59,835 nucleotides of DNA from Sedimentisphaerales bacterium (lineage in GTDB: Bacteria; Planctomycetota; Phycisphaerae; Sedimentisphaerales; Anaerobacaceae). The notes below the pieces were generated by a model. The model did not search any database and was not told the origin of the DNA. It was given only the letters and a program-made list of their open reading frames with translations. A program made the position numbers and the translations under genes. The DNA lies in the NCBI GenBank assembly GCA_016927855.1, contig JAFGLV010000093.1:1-59835 (forward strand). The letters are read 5' to 3'. How positions within the stretch are numbered: the stretch's first letter is position 1; each line of letters begins with the position of its first letter. Below are positions 9,374 through 53,483 of the stretch, piece by piece.

Positions 9374-9404
9374 CATGAGTCACGATCGGAGAAAGGAGAC
9401 GTGC

Positions 9405-10742
9405 ATGGACCGCCGGGATACTCTCAAGAGCTTGGGGCTGGGTGCGATCGTGGGGGCGCTGGGCATCCGTCCCAGCCTGGCAGAGGAGGCGACCGCAAAC
9501 GCGTACGCGCGAGCGACGACGGGATTGCCTCCTTTGAAGATCACGAATGTGAAGGCGATCCTCACCGCTCCCAATGGGATACGGCTTTGCGTGGTCAAGG
9601 TCGAGACCAGCGAAGCTGGGCTGTACGGTCTCGGTTGCGCCACGTTCAACCAGCGTCCCTTGCCGGTCGCAGTGGCGGTCGATGAGTACCTGCGACCGTT
9701 CGCGGTCGGTCGCGACGCCGACAACCTTGAAGACCTCTGGCAGAACGCTTACACGAGCTCCTATTGGCGCAACGGGCCGGTGCTCAATAACGCGCTGAGC
9801 GGGCTCGACCAGGCGCTGTGGGACATCAAGGGTAAGCGCGCGAACATGCCGGTCTACCAGCTTCTGGGCGGCAAGTGCCGCTTCGCGGTCGATTGCTACA
9901 CGCATTGCAGCGGTCGCGACGTGCAGGCGATCGAAGAGAGCGTCCGTCGCGCGATGCAGCGCGGTTTTCGTCACATCCGCATCCAGCAGGGCGGGTATGG
10001 CTCGCCGCACCTGGCGCAGCAGCCCGACTTCCAGGAGGCGGATTTCGGCGCGCGCGACGATGCGCACATGGATACCCGCGCCTACGTCAAAGCGACGCTC
10101 GCGATGTTCGAGCACATTCGCACCACCTGCGGCGACGACGTCGAGCTGCTGCACGACATCCACGAGCGCATACCGCCGATCGAGGCGATCAATCTCGTCA
10201 AGCGGCTCGAGCCCTATCGGCCGTTCTTCATTGAGGACCCCTTCAGCCCCGAAGACAACGGGTATTTCAGACAGCTTCGCCAGCAGACGTCCGTGCCGAT
10301 CGCGATGGGCGAACTGTTCAACAATCCGCATGAGTGGGTCGGCCTGATCTCCGAACGGCTGATCGATTTCATTCGCGTCCACATCTCGCAGATCGGCGGG
10401 CTCAGCGTCGCGCGCAAGATCGCGACGCTCGGTGAATGGTTCAACGTGCGTAGCGCCTGGCATGGACCAGGTGACGTCTCTCCCGTCGGGCACGCGGCGA
10501 ACGCGCACCTCGACCTGGCTATCTGGAATTTTGGGATACAGGAATCCGTTAACTTTGGCGAGCGAACGCGCGAGGTCTTCCTCGGCGCGCCGACGATGGA
10601 GAAAGGATACATGTGCGTCAACGAAGCGCCGGGCTTCGGCGTAGACATCGACGAGAAGCTCGCGGCGAAATACCCCTTGCCGGACCACCCCGGCTATTGG
10701 AGCCCCGTGCGCCGTCCCGACGGCACCGCCGTGCGCCCTTGA
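9405..10742 (+). CDS. Exported mannonate-dehydratase-like (ManD/RspA) enolase-superfamily enzyme
   Basis: 445 residues. The start MDRRDTLKSLGLGAIVGALG was chosen for its AAAGGAG site 6 bases upstream; the frame opens 10 codons earlier. That N terminus is a Tat-like signal. The two-domain enolase-superfamily fold follows: a capping domain with SGLDQALWDIKGKRANMPVYQLLGGK and a barrel with DIHERIPPIEAINLVKRLEP, the metal-site box FFIEDPFSPED, and RVHISQIGGLSVARKIATL followed by the RspA-type WHGPGDVSPVGHAANAHLDL signature with its catalytic His. Cytosolic relatives dehydrate D-mannonate or D-gluconate. Export is unusual; together with the neighbouring exported glycosidases it suggests processing of sugar acids outside the cytoplasm. 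Confidence 0.8.
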   Translation: MDRRDTLKSLGLGAIVGALGIRPSLAEEATANAYARATTGLPPLKITNVKAILTAPNGIRLCVVKVETSEAGLYGLGCATFNQRPLPVAVAVDEYLRPFAVGRDADNLEDLWQNAYTSSYWRNGPVLNNALSGLDQALWDIKGKRANMPVYQLLGGKCRFAVDCYTHCSGRDVQAIEESVRRAMQRGFRHIRIQQGGYGSPHLAQQPDFQEADFGARDDAHMDTRAYVKATLAMFEHIRTTCGDDVELLHDIHERIPPIEAINLVKRLEPYRPFFIEDPFSPEDNGYFRQLRQQTSVPIAMGELFNNPHEWVGLISERLIDFIRVHISQIGGLSVARKIATLGEWFNVRSAWHGPGDVSPVGHAANAHLDLAIWNFGIQESVNFGERTREVFLGAPTMEKGYMCVNEAPGFGVDIDEKLAAKYPLPDHPGYWSPVRRPDGTAVRP

Positions 10743-46675: not shown

Positions 46676-47383
46676 TCAGACAGGTCCGTAGCCGGCGCCG
46701 GGATAGAGCAGGTTCAGCGTCAGCGTCTGGGCGGGACCGACCAGGAGACTCATCAGGTTCCAGGCGATCACGAGCCCGATCAGGTGGAAGCCGGGTTGCG
46801 TCATGACCGCGCGGTAGCGCTCGGCAGCGCTGTCGCTGAGAAACAGTGTGACGATCTCACTGCCGTCCAATGGTGGCAGCGGCAGCAGATTGAAGACCAG
46901 CAGCAGCAGGTTCAAAGACAGCAACACGCTGACGAGAACCGCCGCTCCGCGCGCGAGACCGGGTGTCCGGGCGACGGTGATCTGCTCGAGGTTCGCGGTC
47001 TCCGGCGCCGTGAAGGTGCCGATGGCGATGCCGGCGCGGATCACCAAGGCCGCGAGCAGAACCAGCGCGAGGTTTGCTGCCGGGCCGGCCAAGGCCATGA
47101 ACGCCGCGTGGCGCCGATTGCGCTGCGCCCAGTACGGATCGTACGGCGTGCTGGCCCACCCCATCATCCAGCCGCCCACCAGGAAGGAGACGATCGGAAT
47201 GACGATCATGCCGATCGGCGATCTCTGCATGTGAGCGAGCGGATCCAGCGTGACCAGACCGGCATTGTGCGCGGTGGGGTCTCCCAGCTTCAAGGCTGCC
47301 AGACCGTGCGCCGCCTCGTGGAAGGTCACCGACACGATGAATACCGCATACCAGATGAGTCCCAGTCCGATTTCCATAGCCAT
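46676..47383 (-). CDS. Site-2 protease family (M50) membrane peptidase
   Basis: 235 residues with about six membrane segments. The zinc motif is FHEAAHGLAALKLGD near residue 21; the third ligand is in FNLLPLPPLDGSEIV near 175. This minimal, PDZ-less form matches the FtsH-independent rhomboid-sized M50B group often annotated 'site-2 protease family protein'. It may cleave membrane-bound regulators. No anti-sigma partner is adjacent. Confidence 0.88.
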   Translation of the reverse strand: MAMEIGLGLIWYAVFIVSVTFHEAAHGLAALKLGDPTAHNAGLVTLDPLAHMQRSPIGMIVIPIVSFLVGGWMMGWASTPYDPYWAQRNRRHAAFMALAGPAANLALVLLAALVIRAGIAIGTFTAPETANLEQITVARTPGLARGAAVLVSVLLSLNLLLLVFNLLPLPPLDGSEIVTLFLSDSAAERYRAVMTQPGFHLIGLVIAWNLMSLLVGPAQTLTLNLLYPGAGYGPV

Positions 47384-48714: not shown

Positions 48715-49614
48715 CTATCGGTCCGTCCCGGGATGGACCGGAGACGGCGCTCCTTGCTCCTGGTTGGCGGGAGCAAACCTGCTGCCCTTGTGCCGGAGCT
48801 TGTCGTAGAGCCATCGAGCGAAACTGCCACCTGCGAAGGCCCCGAAGATCAAGACGAGAGCCGCCTGCCTCAGCACTACGACGACGCCCAGGAACAGAAG
48901 CAGTTGAATCAGATGGCTGAAGGGCTTCCTGCCGCGCAGATAGAGGTTCAGGACGTGCGGGTACCGAATCCGGCTGACCATCAGGATGGCCACGCCCAGC
49001 GTTACGACAGGCAGCGCATAGACCAGCACATCGATGCCCGGCACATTTCCCTCCTGGTGCAGGATGACCAGGCTGACGATGACACCCGCCGCGCCGGGAG
49101 AGGGTAGCCCGAAGAAGCTCATGTGCGCGGCTTCGTTCTCTTCGTTTTCAACGTTGAAGCGCGCCAGGCGGATGGCGCCGCAACTGATGTAGGCCAGAGC
49201 GGCCAGCCAAACGAATCGATGAAAGAGGTTGCCGGCCATCGTCGTCGCCAGCGCCGGTTCGCCTTCCACGACATTCAGCATGATGTAGGCCGGCGCGACG
49301 CCGAAGCTGACCAGGTCACAGAGGCTGTCCAACTGGCCGCCGAAGCTGGATGTCGACTGGCTCATGCGTGCCAGTCGCCCATCGAGCATGTCGGCCAGCA
49401 TGGCCAGCAGCACCATGTAGCCGGCCAGGGCATAGTACGACAAGCCGCCGAGGGTCGTCTCGCCCCCTCGGCCAGCCAGGACGATGGCGATGAACCCGAA
49501 GACTCCGTTGAGGATGGTGATCAGCGAGGGCAGTACAGTGATGTACTTGACGCGCTGCCGCCGGACTCGGCGCAACAGCCGGCTTTTATCGTCTCTGGAT
49601 TTCAATCTTGGCAT
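48715..49614 (-). CDS. pssA: CDP-diacylglycerol-serine O-phosphatidyltransferase
   Basis: 299 residues from MPRLKSRDDKSRLL. Membrane enzyme making phosphatidylserine. The CDP-alcohol motif D-G-x2-A-R-x8-G-x3-D-x3-D is complete in LADMLDGRLARMSQSTSSFGGQLDSLCDLVSFGVAPA. Six to eight membrane segments. A basic N terminus precedes the first helix. The start lies inside the end of psd (13-base overlap), so the two steps to phosphatidylethanolamine are co-translated. Confidence 0.94.
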   Translation of the reverse strand: MPRLKSRDDKSRLLRRVRRQRVKYITVLPSLITILNGVFGFIAIVLAGRGGETTLGGLSYYALAGYMVLLAMLADMLDGRLARMSQSTSSFGGQLDSLCDLVSFGVAPAYIMLNVVEGEPALATTMAGNLFHRFVWLAALAYISCGAIRLARFNVENEENEAAHMSFFGLPSPGAAGVIVSLVILHQEGNVPGIDVLVYALPVVTLGVAILMVSRIRYPHVLNLYLRGRKPFSHLIQLLLFLGVVVVLRQAALVLIFGAFAGGSFARWLYDKLRHKGSRFAPANQEQGAPSPVHPGTDR

Positions 49615-50288
49615 ATTCCATACCTTACGAGCGGGGTAACGCCTGCCTTGACCTTGTCCCCGACGCGGACCAGACACTTGGTCTTTTCGCCTGCCGGCAC
49701 GCAAAGTTCGGTTCGAGACCCGAATTTTATCATGCCGAACTTCTCACCCGGCGCCAACTCCTGACCTTCTCGAATGGTACAGACGATACGTCGAGCGATG
49801 GCGCCGCTGATCTGACGGATCATCAGGCGGTCCTTCGGCTCTCGCGCGCGAAGCAGGACCAGCGTGTTCGATTCGTTGACCCGGCCCGAGAGCGGATTCA
49901 TCGCGTTGAGGTATTTGCCCTGGCGGTAGGTGATGGTCTTGACCGTCGCGCGGCAAGGGGCGCGGTTGATGTGCACGTTGAAAATGCTCAGGAAGATGCC
50001 GATGCGCAGGACCGGCCCGGCGCAGATATCGCTGCAATCCACGGTCTCAACGGCTGTCACCGTCCCGTCGGCCGGCGCCACCAGCAGTGCGTCGTCCTGG
50101 GGGACATCGCGGCTCGGATCGCGAAAGAACATCAAGGCCCAGACGAGAAGCGCCAGGAGGACAACCTCCACGATGGCCAGGAGCCACCCCCAGGCAAGGC
50201 AAAGCGCCGCGCCCGTCATCGCTGCGACAATGAGAGCGGGATAGACGACCGCCTGAGGCCATCCGTACTGGGTCAAGGGGATTCTCAT
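49602..50288 (-). CDS. psd: Phosphatidylserine decarboxylase, short PSD-A type
   Basis: 228 residues from MRIPLTQYGWPQ. Two N-terminal membrane helices, then the decarboxylase: ALMFFRDPSRDVPQDDALLVAPADGTV, GIFLSIFNVHINRAPCRATV, and the self-cleavage site in MIKFGSRTELCVP, where the Ser becomes the pyruvoyl group. This GSR-type cleavage box marks the short PSD-A class. An intrinsic terminator on the same strand lies 41 bases upstream (50329-50356). Confidence 0.93.
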   Translation of the reverse strand: MRIPLTQYGWPQAVVYPALIVAAMTGAALCLAWGWLLAIVEVVLLALLVWALMFFRDPSRDVPQDDALLVAPADGTVTAVETVDCSDICAGPVLRIGIFLSIFNVHINRAPCRATVKTITYRQGKYLNAMNPLSGRVNESNTLVLLRAREPKDRLMIRQISGAIARRIVCTIREGQELAPGEKFGMIKFGSRTELCVPAGEKTKCLVRVGDKVKAGVTPLVRYGICQD

Positions 50289-50328
50289 AGGCCGGACATG
50301 ATACGTGCGGCGCCAGGCCCAGGCAATG

Positions 50329-50356
50329 AAAAAGGCCGACCTCCGCCGCGTCGGCC
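50329..50356 (-). terminator. Intrinsic terminator upstream of psd
   Basis: On the minus strand: GGCCGAC, loop GCGGCGGAG, GTCGGCC, then TTTTT. A textbook terminator 40 bases before psd. As the next gene on the right is on the plus strand, the transcript it ends must begin inside 50357-50774, or it is a leader attenuator of psd-pssA. Confidence 0.75.
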
Positions 50357-50774
50357 CAGTCAAGGAGAACAGTGAGTTCCATGGTGGGAGCCTGCTACGT
50401 TTGGATGCCCCGTAACCGGCTCGAATTCGACCATCCAGGCCGCCGGGAGCCGGGCTGCAGCCCGATTCCCGCGTGCCTTCATTACTATGGACGCCACAAG
50501 CACCCGGATGTTACAACGTTTCCTGAGATTATTTGACGGATTGATCCCCTGGGTGAAACTTGGAGAATCGCCCCTTGACGGGTCCGGAGATTGCCGGTAT
50601 CCTCTAGCCTTTTCCCGATGCGGGAGAAGTACGGCTGCGCTGCGTGTGCCGGTCGACACCCTCCAGTAGGCTCGACCTTGGCCCGTGCAGTCCCGGCGGA
50701 GTCCGATCGCAGGGCGCCGGCGGGGCCAAACCGGCAAGATGTATTGGAATAGTAGGTAGAAGGAGAAGTGCTCA
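50357..50774. other. Unassigned 418-base region; possible minus-strand RNA and the eno promoter
   Basis: No protein frame is convincing. It contains the palindrome GGGAGCCGGGCTGCAGCCCG followed by ATTCCCG (about 50445-50470), other GC-rich stems, and a strong AGAAGGAGAAG ribosome site just before the enolase fusion gene. I checked for tRNA, SRP, tmRNA and RNase P signatures by eye and did not find them. Confidence 0.4.
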
Positions 50775-53483
50775 ATGGCTCAAATCGACAAATCTGGGGC
50801 AGACATGAACAGGGAAAGGCGCCGCTGCCGAGTCGCGACCGCGACCATGGGCCCGGCAGGCTATCTGGAGCGCGGCTGGGTCATCGCCAACCACAAGCTC
50901 GTCTCCTTCCACGCCGCCTTCATCTCATCGGTACTCAGCCTTCCGGCAGCGGAGTTGGCGAAAGCCGCAGCCGACCCCGACGTGAACATCAAGCTCAGAG
51001 TCCTGAGGTTCATGTTCGCAAGTTGGGAAACGGTGGTCTCCCTCGTCATCCTCTACTTGTCGTGGCACATCGCCATCGCGATCCACGAGATGGGGCACTT
51101 CCTGACCGCCGCCAAGCTGACGGCCTTGAACAAGGATTCGCAGGAAAAGGCCGATGCGGCGCTCCAAAGCGGCGGCAGGGTTGGCCTGTACGCCCAAATG
51201 CTCCTGCTGATTCCCTGGGGCAAATTCTACGGTGTCAGGAAGGAGAACGGAAACTTCGCTCCGGACGCACCGTACAACCTCGCCGTGGCGGCCTCGGCTC
51301 CCATCTGGAGTGGATACCTGGCTTTGGTCTGTCTGCCGGTTGCGGGCCTGTGCATCCTGATCGGATTGGTGGCCGGTCAGGATTGGCTGATCTACATCGG
51401 CCGTTTCTTCCTGGCGCCGGGCTGCGTCGGTCTGCTGGACCGGCTGCTGGCCGACCCCGGCAAACTCAGAGAGTTCCGCAACCGCGAGAAGATGGCGGCC
51501 GAGCAAGCGGCCCGTGCCGCCGCGGCTGCTTCCAAGGAGAGCTGGATGGTCCAGGTTGCGCAGGTTAAGCAGAAGCTGCTGACAACGCGCATGCAGTCCG
51601 TCACGCTGAAGGATGGAAGCCGGGTGGCTGCTCCCTGGCAATTCCGAAACTGCGCCATGGGCGGACGGCACACCGAAAAAGAGTACCCCGAGAGCAACAT
51701 CTCCATGCAGGAAAGCATGTTCATGCCGCTCTCACCCAAGACCTACGAAGACGCGCAGGAAATGACCGTGAAGCTCCAGTACCGGCTCAAGGAGATCATC
51801 GAGTCAGCCCCGGGTGCCAAGGTCATGGGCGTCGGCCTCGAAGGCGGCATTGCTCCGTACATCGACAAAGAGCCGCAAGACCAGGTGCCCGAGCAGCGGA
51901 TGTGGCGCTTTATGAAGCAGGCCATTCTCGATTGCGAGTACGTTCCGGGCGTCGATGTCGCCATCGCGTTGGATCCGGCCTGTTCCGAGCTCGAAAATGC
52001 GTACCGTGACGAGCGCGGCGAGCCCGATTCCGCCGGCATGTACCGTTTCTGGCGCGACAAGAGCAAAGTCGAGATGAGCCGCGACCAGATTCTTGACCTC
52101 TTCAAGCAGGCGATGGACCAAGGCATCCCGGTCCTCTCGATCGAAGACGGCTTCGGCGAGCGCGACCATGAGGGTTGGAAGAACCTGGTCAAAGAGCTGG
52201 GCGACAAGGTCTTTGTCATCGGTGACGATTTGGTTACCACGAAGGACACGACCATCGAGACTTGTGCCAAGAACGGCGAAATCAACGCGTCTCTCATTAA
52301 AGCCAACCAGATCGGCACGCTCTCCGAGACGGTGCTAGCCATGCTGACCTCGCTGGCCTACGGCGCCGAACTGGTGATTTCGCACCGGTCCAAGTCGCCG
52401 AACGACCCGTTCGAGGCGGAAATCGGCACCGCGATGAACGCTCTGGGTGTCAAGTGCGGCGGCGGCGCCAATACCGAGCGGCTTCAGAAGTACGGTCGCG
52501 TCATGGAAATCCTCGCGCTGGCGCGCGCCAGTCAGAGAGAGATAACCGATAAGGAGCGCAAAGAGGTCGAAGCGAATGTCAAGGAGCTGGTTGGCATTCT
52601 CACCGGCAAGAACGACGTCGCCATTTCTCCCAAGGCCGGCGAGATCGATATCACCAGCCTGCTGATCAAGATGCTGGCGATCGAGGCCGTCAGCGGCACT
52701 GAGGAGGCCACCAACGCCGGTATTCCCTCGGCGGCGGCTACGCTGTTCCTCGGCCGCAGCGGCATCATCCGCTACAAAGGCTCGACACCGCTGGGAACCA
52801 GCGCCGGTGAGGATGAAGCCATCCACTACGTCGATAGCATCATTGAGAAGTCCGAGACGACCAAGAAGTACTCCGATCTCTTCAAAGATGCCGGCGACGG
52901 GACGCTCCGCTTCAAGAAGGATGTGAATGCTCAGGTCGTCAAGAGCAAGAATGACGAGAAGCTGGCGGCTCTTTGGAGGAAATCGCGACGCTACGATGGC
53001 AAGGGCTGCATGGATGCCGTCCAGCACATTGAGACGGTCCTGGCCAACGCCTTCGTTGGTAAGAAGCTCGGAACGCTGGGATCGGTGCTCGATACGGACA
53101 AGGCCCTGTTGGGCCTGGAGCTGGAGCAAGCGATCAGCATGGGGCGCATCGGCAAGGATGCTTCGGGTCCCGAGAAGATTCAGGCCATGCAGCGCAAGGG
53201 CGTCCTGGGTATGAACGCCATCTTGTCGATGTCCCTGGCGCTGGGCCGGGCCGTGGCCGCTGCCGACGGCAAGGAGCTATGGCAACTCATCCGTGCCGTG
53301 GCCAGCGACGCGATGGCCGGGTTCATCGAGGCCAATGCCAAGGGCAAGAAGAGCGCGGACTTGAAGAAGATCGATTTCGATGAGTTGCAGAAGCTGTTCC
53401 GTGAGACTTCGACGGCCGCGATCAAGGACGGCAAGAATATCACGGAGCTGCTGCGAGCCCAGTTGCCCGTCTACCCGGTGTAG
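50775..53483 (+). CDS. Membrane M50-like domain fused to a domain-swapped (circularly permuted) enolase
   Basis: 902 residues; GGAGAAG lies 7 bases before the ATG. Part 1 (about 75-225) is a membrane domain with IAIAIHEMGHFLTAAK (His104, Glu105, His108), hydrophobic segments near 85-103, 165-200 and 205-220, and LLDRLLADPG as a possible third zinc ligand (Asp222). A charged linker follows (228-280). Part 2 (about 285-585) is the enolase barrel: His299, Glu313 (MQES), Glu356 (GLEGG), Asp400, Glu457 (SIEDGF), Asp485 (VIGDDL), Lys509 (LIKANQIGTLSET), His537-Arg538-Ser539, Lys560. Part 3 (about 620-902) is the normally N-terminal domain: TPLGTSAGEDEA places Ser676 at the mobile-loop serine, then DGKGCMDAVQ and LGMNAILSMSLALGRA, ending LPVYPV where a normal enolase would enter the barrel. 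Predicted 2-phosphoglycerate hydratase, possibly membrane-bound. Confidence 0.85.
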   Translation: MAQIDKSGADMNRERRRCRVATATMGPAGYLERGWVIANHKLVSFHAAFISSVLSLPAAELAKAAADPDVNIKLRVLRFMFASWETVVSLVILYLSWHIAIAIHEMGHFLTAAKLTALNKDSQEKADAALQSGGRVGLYAQMLLLIPWGKFYGVRKENGNFAPDAPYNLAVAASAPIWSGYLALVCLPVAGLCILIGLVAGQDWLIYIGRFFLAPGCVGLLDRLLADPGKLREFRNREKMAAEQAARAAAAASKESWMVQVAQVKQKLLTTRMQSVTLKDGSRVAAPWQFRNCAMGGRHTEKEYPESNISMQESMFMPLSPKTYEDAQEMTVKLQYRLKEIIESAPGAKVMGVGLEGGIAPYIDKEPQDQVPEQRMWRFMKQAILDCEYVPGVDVAIALDPACSELENAYRDERGEPDSAGMYRFWRDKSKVEMSRDQILDLFKQAMDQGIPVLSIEDGFGERDHEGWKNLVKELGDKVFVIGDDLVTTKDTTIETCAKNGEINASLIKANQIGTLSETVLAMLTSLAYGAELVISHRSKSPNDPFEAEIGTAMNALGVKCGGGANTERLQKYGRVMEILALARASQREITDKERKEVEANVKELVGILTGKNDVAISPKAGEIDITSLLIKMLAIEAVSGTEEATNAGIPSAAATLFLGRSGIIRYKGSTPLGTSAGEDEAIHYVDSIIEKSETTKKYSDLFKDAGDGTLRFKKDVNAQVVKSKNDEKLAALWRKSRRYDGKGCMDAVQHIETVLANAFVGKKLGTLGSVLDTDKALLGLELEQAISMGRIGKDASGPEKIQAMQRKGVLGMNAILSMSLALGRAVAAADGKELWQLIRAVASDAMAGFIEANAKGKKSADLKKIDFDELQKLFRETSTAAIKDGKNITELLRAQLPVYPV

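Follow-up and report, generated by a model that had tools for sequence, protein, structure and literature searches.

A predicted membrane-tethered, circularly permuted enolase behind an M50-like domain in a Sedimentisphaerales bacterium

Few enzymes are as conserved as enolase (phosphopyruvate hydratase; PF00113 and PF03952, TIGR01060; E. coli 6bfy), which is regarded as soluble and fixed in architecture. The M50 membrane metalloproteases (site-2 protease, PF02163; 3b4r) contain an HExxH helix, a beta hairpin and a later helix with an aspartate. A stretch of DNA from a Sedimentisphaerales bacterium (positions 1 to 59,835 of contig JAFGLV010000093.1, assembly GCA_016927855.1; this 59,835-nucleotide stretch is hereafter the window) carries a gene that joins an enolase to an M50-like membrane part. 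The gene, 50775-53483 (+), is a single open reading frame of 902 aa with an ATG start. Its product has the barrel fold, the small domain and 13 active-site residues in common with ordinary enolase and differs from it in the reversed order of its domains, a membrane domain in front and a small domain lengthened by two additional stretches. It would thus be a variant of enolase, with barrel fold and active-site residues as known and with a reversed order and a membrane fusion that appear to be new. A full-text literature search, which left most subscription journals and bioRxiv preprints uncovered, returned no circularly permuted enolase, enolase-M50 fusion or enolase-dikinase fusion; the first-pass annotation of this DNA, too, had known of no described glycolytic enzyme of this form. 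The explanation that we favor, and consider probable, is a working, membrane-tethered, circularly permuted enolase behind a predicted M50-like domain, which could stand in for the ordinary enzyme.

Domain order and active site of the fusion protein

The features of the gene are as follows.

50775..53483 (+): entire coding sequence, 902 aa, in the order membrane domain, enolase barrel, enolase small domain, tail
50856..51614 (+): M50-like membrane domain and connector into the barrel, residues 28-280; N39, H40, H46 and H98 invariant
51084..51098 (+): HEMGH metal-site motif (putative), residues 104-108; H104, E105, G107 and H108 invariant in 40/40 and in 42/42 sequences
51438..51440 (+): D222 within LLDRLLAD, likely third metal ligand; invariant in 40/40 and 42/42
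51615..52532 (+): enolase (alpha/beta)8 barrel, residues 281-586, with H299, Q312, E313, E356, D400, E457, D485, K509, H537, R538, S539 and K560
52533..52679 (+): connector from barrel end to small-domain start, residues 587-635; mostly helical in the model and shorter in relatives of ~815 aa
52680..53294 (+): enolase small (N-terminal) domain, residues 636-840, with predicted active-site S676 (yeast S39); in the model, residues 635-670 contain three strands
53295..53480 (+): C-terminal tail ending LPVYPV, residues 841-902; conserved in close relatives, different in the ~815-aa form

All of the enolase boxes quoted in the first-pass annotation were found in this one frame, in the order given there. 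Those of the barrel come first (GGRH 296-299, MQES 311-314, GLEGG 354-358, ALD 398-400, SIED 455-458, GDDL 483-486, LIKANQIGT 507-515, SHRS 536-539, and VK 559-560) and are followed by those of the small domain (SAGEDEA 676-682, GKG 742-744, and LGMNAILSMSLA 811-822). Pfam identified the barrel (Enolase_C, 289-579, 3.4e-48), and its best Enolase_N stretch, 805-839 (5.9e-8), scored 33.4 bits, just under the cut-off of 35; the enolase equivalog TIGR01060 gave 192.4 bits, below its curated cut-off of 300. When the protein was compared by BLASTP with the ordinary enolase of the same genome, to which its barrel is 30% identical, residues 287-579 aligned with ordinary 184-448 (2e-33) and residues 736-842 with ordinary 90-172 (2e-6): the usual order, small domain before barrel, is reversed. 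Profile comparison of 58 permuted with 31 ordinary small domains by hhalign gave a probability of 99.3 and an E-value of 1.4e-20, and because the alignment spans template columns 1-132 of 147, the small domain is essentially whole, with two extra stretches; permuted and ordinary barrels matched at 5.3e-59. Among relatives, Enolase_N was matched in 42/42 at E ≤ 0.01, and in one of them, L129, a single match downstream of the barrel covers 1-129 of the 131 profile positions.

The reversed order is a property of the family. One round of motif filtering was passed by 74 of 92 loci; the 58 sequences (47 distinct, window included) with all four marker motifs have the barrel before the small domain, with none out of order. 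A tree of the 58 permuted and 31 ordinary barrels placed the permuted ones on one side of a single branch (100/100); the great length of this branch and an ordinary set drawn mostly from one class keep the tree from indicating the parent lineage. A fold search with the whole model, conducted in sequence order, covered the barrel only, with model residue 586 equivalent to residue 418 of the E. coli enzyme, whose full length is 432. Judged from these comparisons, the protein is a circular permutation of enolase cut in the inter-domain linker, as the first-pass annotation had proposed. That annotation also took the terminal LPVYPV for the point at which an ordinary enolase enters its barrel. The ending is the same or nearly so in close relatives; the ordinary barrel end was unaligned, and because the ~815-aa relatives end otherwise, LPVYPV need not be a linker remnant. 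The membrane part may have made the permutation possible by occupying the small domain's old position, as the same annotation suggested. Origin of the permutation from a tandem eno pair would fit two loci where an ordinary eno lies close by, as the adjacent gene in L114 (WOR-3, CP070664.1) and some 0.65 kb away in L136 (Asgard).

Each active-site residue had been said to have a plausible counterpart, and this was borne out. In yeast numbering, the sites are S39, H159, Q167, E168, E211, D246, E295, D320, K345, H373, R374, S375, and K396. These 13 residues, which serve catalysis, metal binding or phosphate binding, are identical in 42/42 aligned relatives (down to 45% identity to the window protein); a search of these relatives for lost active-site residues found none. 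Among barrel columns invariant (≥95%) in 31 ordinary enolases, the 12 active-site residues were all kept in permuted relatives, compared with 34 of 71 others (Fisher 4e-4). Without the motifs used in picking sequences, the figures were 8/8 and 31/67 (p 0.004). The 42-row alignment was not selected by those motifs; in the motif-picked set, the 13 residues were kept in 47/47 sequences and 33 of the 71 other columns were retained, but the 47/47 is in part circular, since 5 of the 13 positions are already set by the filter. Values of dN/dS from six pairs lay at 0.03-0.08 (barrel), 0.09-0.20 (small domain) and 0.115-0.19 (membrane part, with one value saturated). All three parts are under purifying selection.

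With residue roles as in yeast enolase, a mechanism can be proposed. The membrane domain would anchor the enzyme with its catalytic part at the inner, cytosolic face of the membrane, and the small domain would dock onto its own barrel as in ordinary enolase. S676 and H299 would close over 2-phosphoglycerate, K509 would remove the alpha proton, E356 and E313 would assist departure of water, and Mg2+ would be held by D400, E457, and D485, so that 2-phosphoglycerate would be converted to phosphoenolpyruvate (PEP) and water.

Distribution of the fusion and of ordinary eno

The 119 best of 941 protein matches to the window protein (120 with the query included) have 77-85% identity over at least 96% of the query. 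Among the best 120 of 969 matches to the ~815-aa form are relatives at ~57-61% identity, some labelled Terriglobales and Elusimicrobia. A scan of GTDB contigs gave 123 loci, of which 80 were kept, some of them cut by contig ends; by our grouping, their titles represent at least 15 phyla. They name Planctomycetota, Verrucomicrobiota, Acidobacteriota, Gemmatimonadota, Myxococcota, Pseudomonadota, Elusimicrobiota, and Spirochaetes, with the further labels Omnitrophota, Margulisbacteria (WOR-1), Krumholzibacteria, Fermentibacteria, WOR-3, Chloroflexota, and an Asgard archaeon. Single phylum cases may be misbinned, because the labels come from metagenome-assembled genomes (MAGs). The permuted form, whole or partial, occurred in at least 16 of 298 genomes of the class, and its occurrence is patchy, since a phylum sample contained the gene in 3 of 392 genomes, window included. 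Database names of members are "enolase", "phosphopyruvate hydratase" or "hypothetical protein".

An assembly or annotation artefact, in which an M50 gene and a scrambled eno were joined as a chimera, would suit a single occurrence only. The hundreds of matches, near full length where listed (best 120 of 941, of 969 and of 360), the relatives at 80 loci, the mostly continuous frames and dN/dS well below 1 are at odds with it. The artefact, which the first-pass annotation would have suspected had the fusion been absent from related genomes, was accordingly rejected as having next to no likelihood.

The permuted gene and the ordinary eno were then counted in two families of Phycisphaerae. In the window's family (89 genomes), 14 genomes had the permuted gene only, 9 had both, 1 had the permuted gene with a decayed ordinary eno, 1 was uncertain, 54 had the ordinary gene only and 10 had neither. 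The second family (35 genomes) comprised 9 permuted-only genomes, 3 of them imperfect (G223 frameshifted; G159 and G165 in pieces), none with both, 20 ordinary-only and 6 with neither. In the pooled families, ordinary eno was missing from 23 of the 33 genomes that carry the permuted gene and from 16 of the 90 that lack it (Fisher p 1.2e-7), with G392 omitted for its uncertain pieces and G277 counted as having ordinary eno despite its decay. At a completeness of at least 85%, the figures were 16/24 and 3/57 (p 1.5e-8). One genome, G378, was placed with the permuted-only ones on the scores of two partial matches, and second, weak Enolase_C matches (~25-33 bits; G226/G310 and G195) were left uncounted as probable members of other branches of the enolase superfamily. 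The chromosomes CP070678.1 and CP070675.1, each a single contig, show the permuted enolase only, together with full-length matches to phosphoglycerate kinase (PGK) and pyruvate kinase (PK), and PGK was present in 15/16 permuted-only genomes.

Decay and turnover of the ordinary gene were also seen. In G277, the ordinary eno has an early frameshift, has lost ~58 residues between the DEGG and GDDL boxes and stops before SHRS; the permuted gene of this genome is whole. A tree was built with 16 of the family's 54 ordinary-only genomes (the window's family). In it, the 9 genomes with both genes had all their ordinary enolases in one divergent clade (100/100), which included two ordinary-only genomes (64 and 85% complete) and stood apart from the 14 others sampled. 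By this tree, none of the 9 retains the enolase usual in the family. The permuted protein likely performs the enolase step where no other intact eno was found; a central step of sugar metabolism would then be carried out by it in several relatives, most of them draft genomes, because no other intact eno was detected there. Our best reading is that the permuted enolase has displaced the ordinary one in several lineages. The proposal that the permutation keeps activity thus gains indirect support from residue conservation, from purifying selection and from relatives whose ordinary eno is absent or decayed.

Several points weigh against a working replacement enzyme. The window's own genome also carries an ordinary eno with intact motifs, and the permuted protein would be a second enolase there, as both enzymes are encoded. 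The first-pass annotation held that a normal-order eno combined with loss of key contacts would suggest a non-enolase role; the former exists, and no key contact has been lost in the sequence. Ordinary eno was sought in the genomes of 50 of the 80 named loci (some are the same assemblies as the G-numbered genomes, so the counts overlap), and 38 of these 50 genomes with the permuted gene also hold a whole or partial ordinary eno, leaving 12, the two single-contig chromosomes among them, with the permuted gene only. All 80 locus titles denote MAGs, the absence counts rest on draft genomes, and the single-contig chromosomes CP070678.1 and CP070675.1 (G366 and G365) are rated just 87 and 89% complete. 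PK was found in just 10/16 permuted-only genomes. The Fisher tests ignore kinship, and the 42 aligned relatives share ancestry and hence are not independent trials. Docking of the small domain is inferential and lies beyond the reach of sequence-order fold searches. Finally, SHRSGETE of ordinary enolases is SHRSKSPN in the window protein; an altered substrate is therefore possible.

Few neighbors of the fusion are shared outside close kin. In the window, genes for a CDP-alcohol phosphatidyltransferase and a phosphatidylserine decarboxylase lie upstream in the opposite direction (48715-50363, -), and relatives of one or both are near the fusion in six other loci. An RNase III gene lies near the fusion on the opposite strand in L084 (by Pfam) and in L087, L101, L106, and L109 (by BLASTP cluster); the fold-search rows include 5ohg, and ordinary E. 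coli enolase binds RNase E. Elsewhere in the window, a separate gene at 9375-10742 (+) codes for a member of the enolase superfamily that is of mandelate racemase type (MR_MLE_C 2.5e-45).

The membrane domain

Searched separately, as had been suggested, the barrel and the small domain were both matched by profile methods, and no M50 match (PF02163) was found by Pfam in the window's own sequence. PF02163 was matched in 28/42 relatives (best 6.1e-7), and the HExxH of M50 metalloproteases is represented by an HExGH that is invariant in 40/40 diverse sequences. D222 presumably plays the part of the aspartate in the M50 LDG motif. Because HExGH and the aspartate are kept in every aligned relative, the membrane domain is likely metal-binding. 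The membrane tether proposed by the first-pass annotation is supported as a prediction. The HExxH helix, the beta hairpin and the later helix with an aspartate appear to be common to this family and the M50 proteases; the family differs in its weak or absent Pfam score, in the invariant N39, H40, H46, and H98 and in having an enolase C-terminal of the membrane part. These additional Asn and His residues lie near the HExGH helix and, to our knowledge, are not expected in an ordinary M50 core. A conventional M50 protease gene (Pfam 4e-14) is found 3.4 kb upstream of the fusion, at 46676-47383 (-).

Other M50 proteins carry regulatory domains, and the fusion could accordingly be a metabolite-gated membrane protease, in which the permuted enolase mainly senses 2-phosphoglycerate or PEP and switches an M50-type intramembrane metalloprotease. 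Such a role would agree with the invariance of HExGH and D222 in the 40 diverse sequences, with selection on the membrane domain and with the retention of ordinary enolase, whole or partial, in the 38 of 50 genomes noted above. Structural searches with the membrane-domain model were divided: site-2 protease was the top VIA row, and Foldseek gave no significant match and no site-2 protease among its 50 rows. A pure sensor would explain neither why every catalytic residue is conserved nor why ordinary eno is absent or decayed in relatives, and we consider it unlikely beside a membrane-tethered enolase.

Long forms with dikinase domains

Pyruvate phosphate dikinase and PEP synthase (PF01326, PF00391) are the third known system with which the family can be compared. 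In many phyla, the frame of the permuted enolase extends to about 2000-2200 residues; frames of about 2030-2220 aa were seen in L122 (7995-14072) and about 20 other loci. Three long forms were scanned (L122, L132, and L128), and in each the enolase part gives way to a long stretch free of Pfam matches and then to PPDK_N and a PEP-utilizers (swivelling phosphohistidine) domain. The same precomputed domains occur in most of the best 120 of 360 matches in a further protein search. Thus, matches to ATP-binding and swivelling His domains of the dikinase type close the scanned relatives of ~2000 aa, although these three differ from dikinases in having no Pfam match to the PEP-binding barrel. The motif GG[SA][TS]SHA, with its predicted phospho-histidine, was present in 18/21 long-frame loci examined, and some long forms bear the JGI label "enolase/phosphoenolpyruvate synthase/pyruvate phosphate dikinase". 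On an Omnitrophota contig (L129, G332:C98), the open frame that holds the permuted enolase has a reported length of 10,113 aa and, at a later position, a histidine-kinase-type ATPase domain.

A separate dikinase-like gene (~850-1550 aa) was found within the fetched flanks of 8/80 loci, adjacent to the fusion in 6:

L103, L104, L105, L108, L110, L140, L147, L150: loci with a separate dikinase-like gene

These neighbors group together by BLASTP, and Pfam matches in six of them were weak (three PPDK_N barely above cut-off or better, two PEP-utilizers below cut-off, one none). Because the dikinase is fused in one set and adjacent in another, a joint function of the enolase and dikinase parts is suggested. 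The window protein itself has no Pfam match to PPDK or PEP synthase domains; ATP-binding and phosphohistidine domains occur in its long relatives only. A search of the window's genome for the dikinase partner gave no match at 1e-5, and the frames around that genome's PPDK_N matches, compared by BLASTP with the long form and with its C-terminal part, matched neither at 1e-3.

Ordinary eno was lacking in 0/17 long-frame genomes and in 12/31 short-frame ones (p 0.002); "long" here means frame length, the dikinase domains being unshown in most of the 17, and L131 and L139, cut by contig ends, were omitted from the 50. From this difference, the long form may serve a side job, and the short form, which is the window's, may be able to replace eno. 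The same data bear on whether the family catalyzes a different reaction, as an enolase-superfamily lyase whose substrate would be a different phosphorylated hydroxy acid and whose chemistry would be PEP-like, in a side pathway with dikinase-type phosphohistidine domains. The domains fused in the three scanned forms, the dikinase-like gene in the flanks of 8/80 loci and the constant presence of ordinary eno beside long frames speak for such a lyase. However, all phosphate ligands are retained, the window protein has no dikinase part and its genome no partner match, and it is the short type, to which it belongs, that was seen as sole enolase in genomes with PGK. We therefore give a different reaction a low probability, and a permuted enolase that retains the glycolytic reaction is preferred for the window protein.

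A wider scheme, which we would put at slightly less than an even chance, unites these forms in a cross-phylum family of membrane PEP machines. Enolase would have been permuted once and locked to a zinc-protease-like membrane domain, the long form would pass its chemistry to fused dikinase domains, and the short form would have displaced the glycolytic enolase in several Planctomycetota lineages. Genome-based metabolic models could label organisms that have only the permuted form as enolase-less, because the order-sensitive TIGR01060 scores the window protein under its cut-off. If the permuted protein is the sole enolase in some genomes, then the usual domain order is dispensable and a central glycolytic step can be located at the membrane, and the tie to dikinases would point to an undescribed PEP-handling system across many uncultured phyla.

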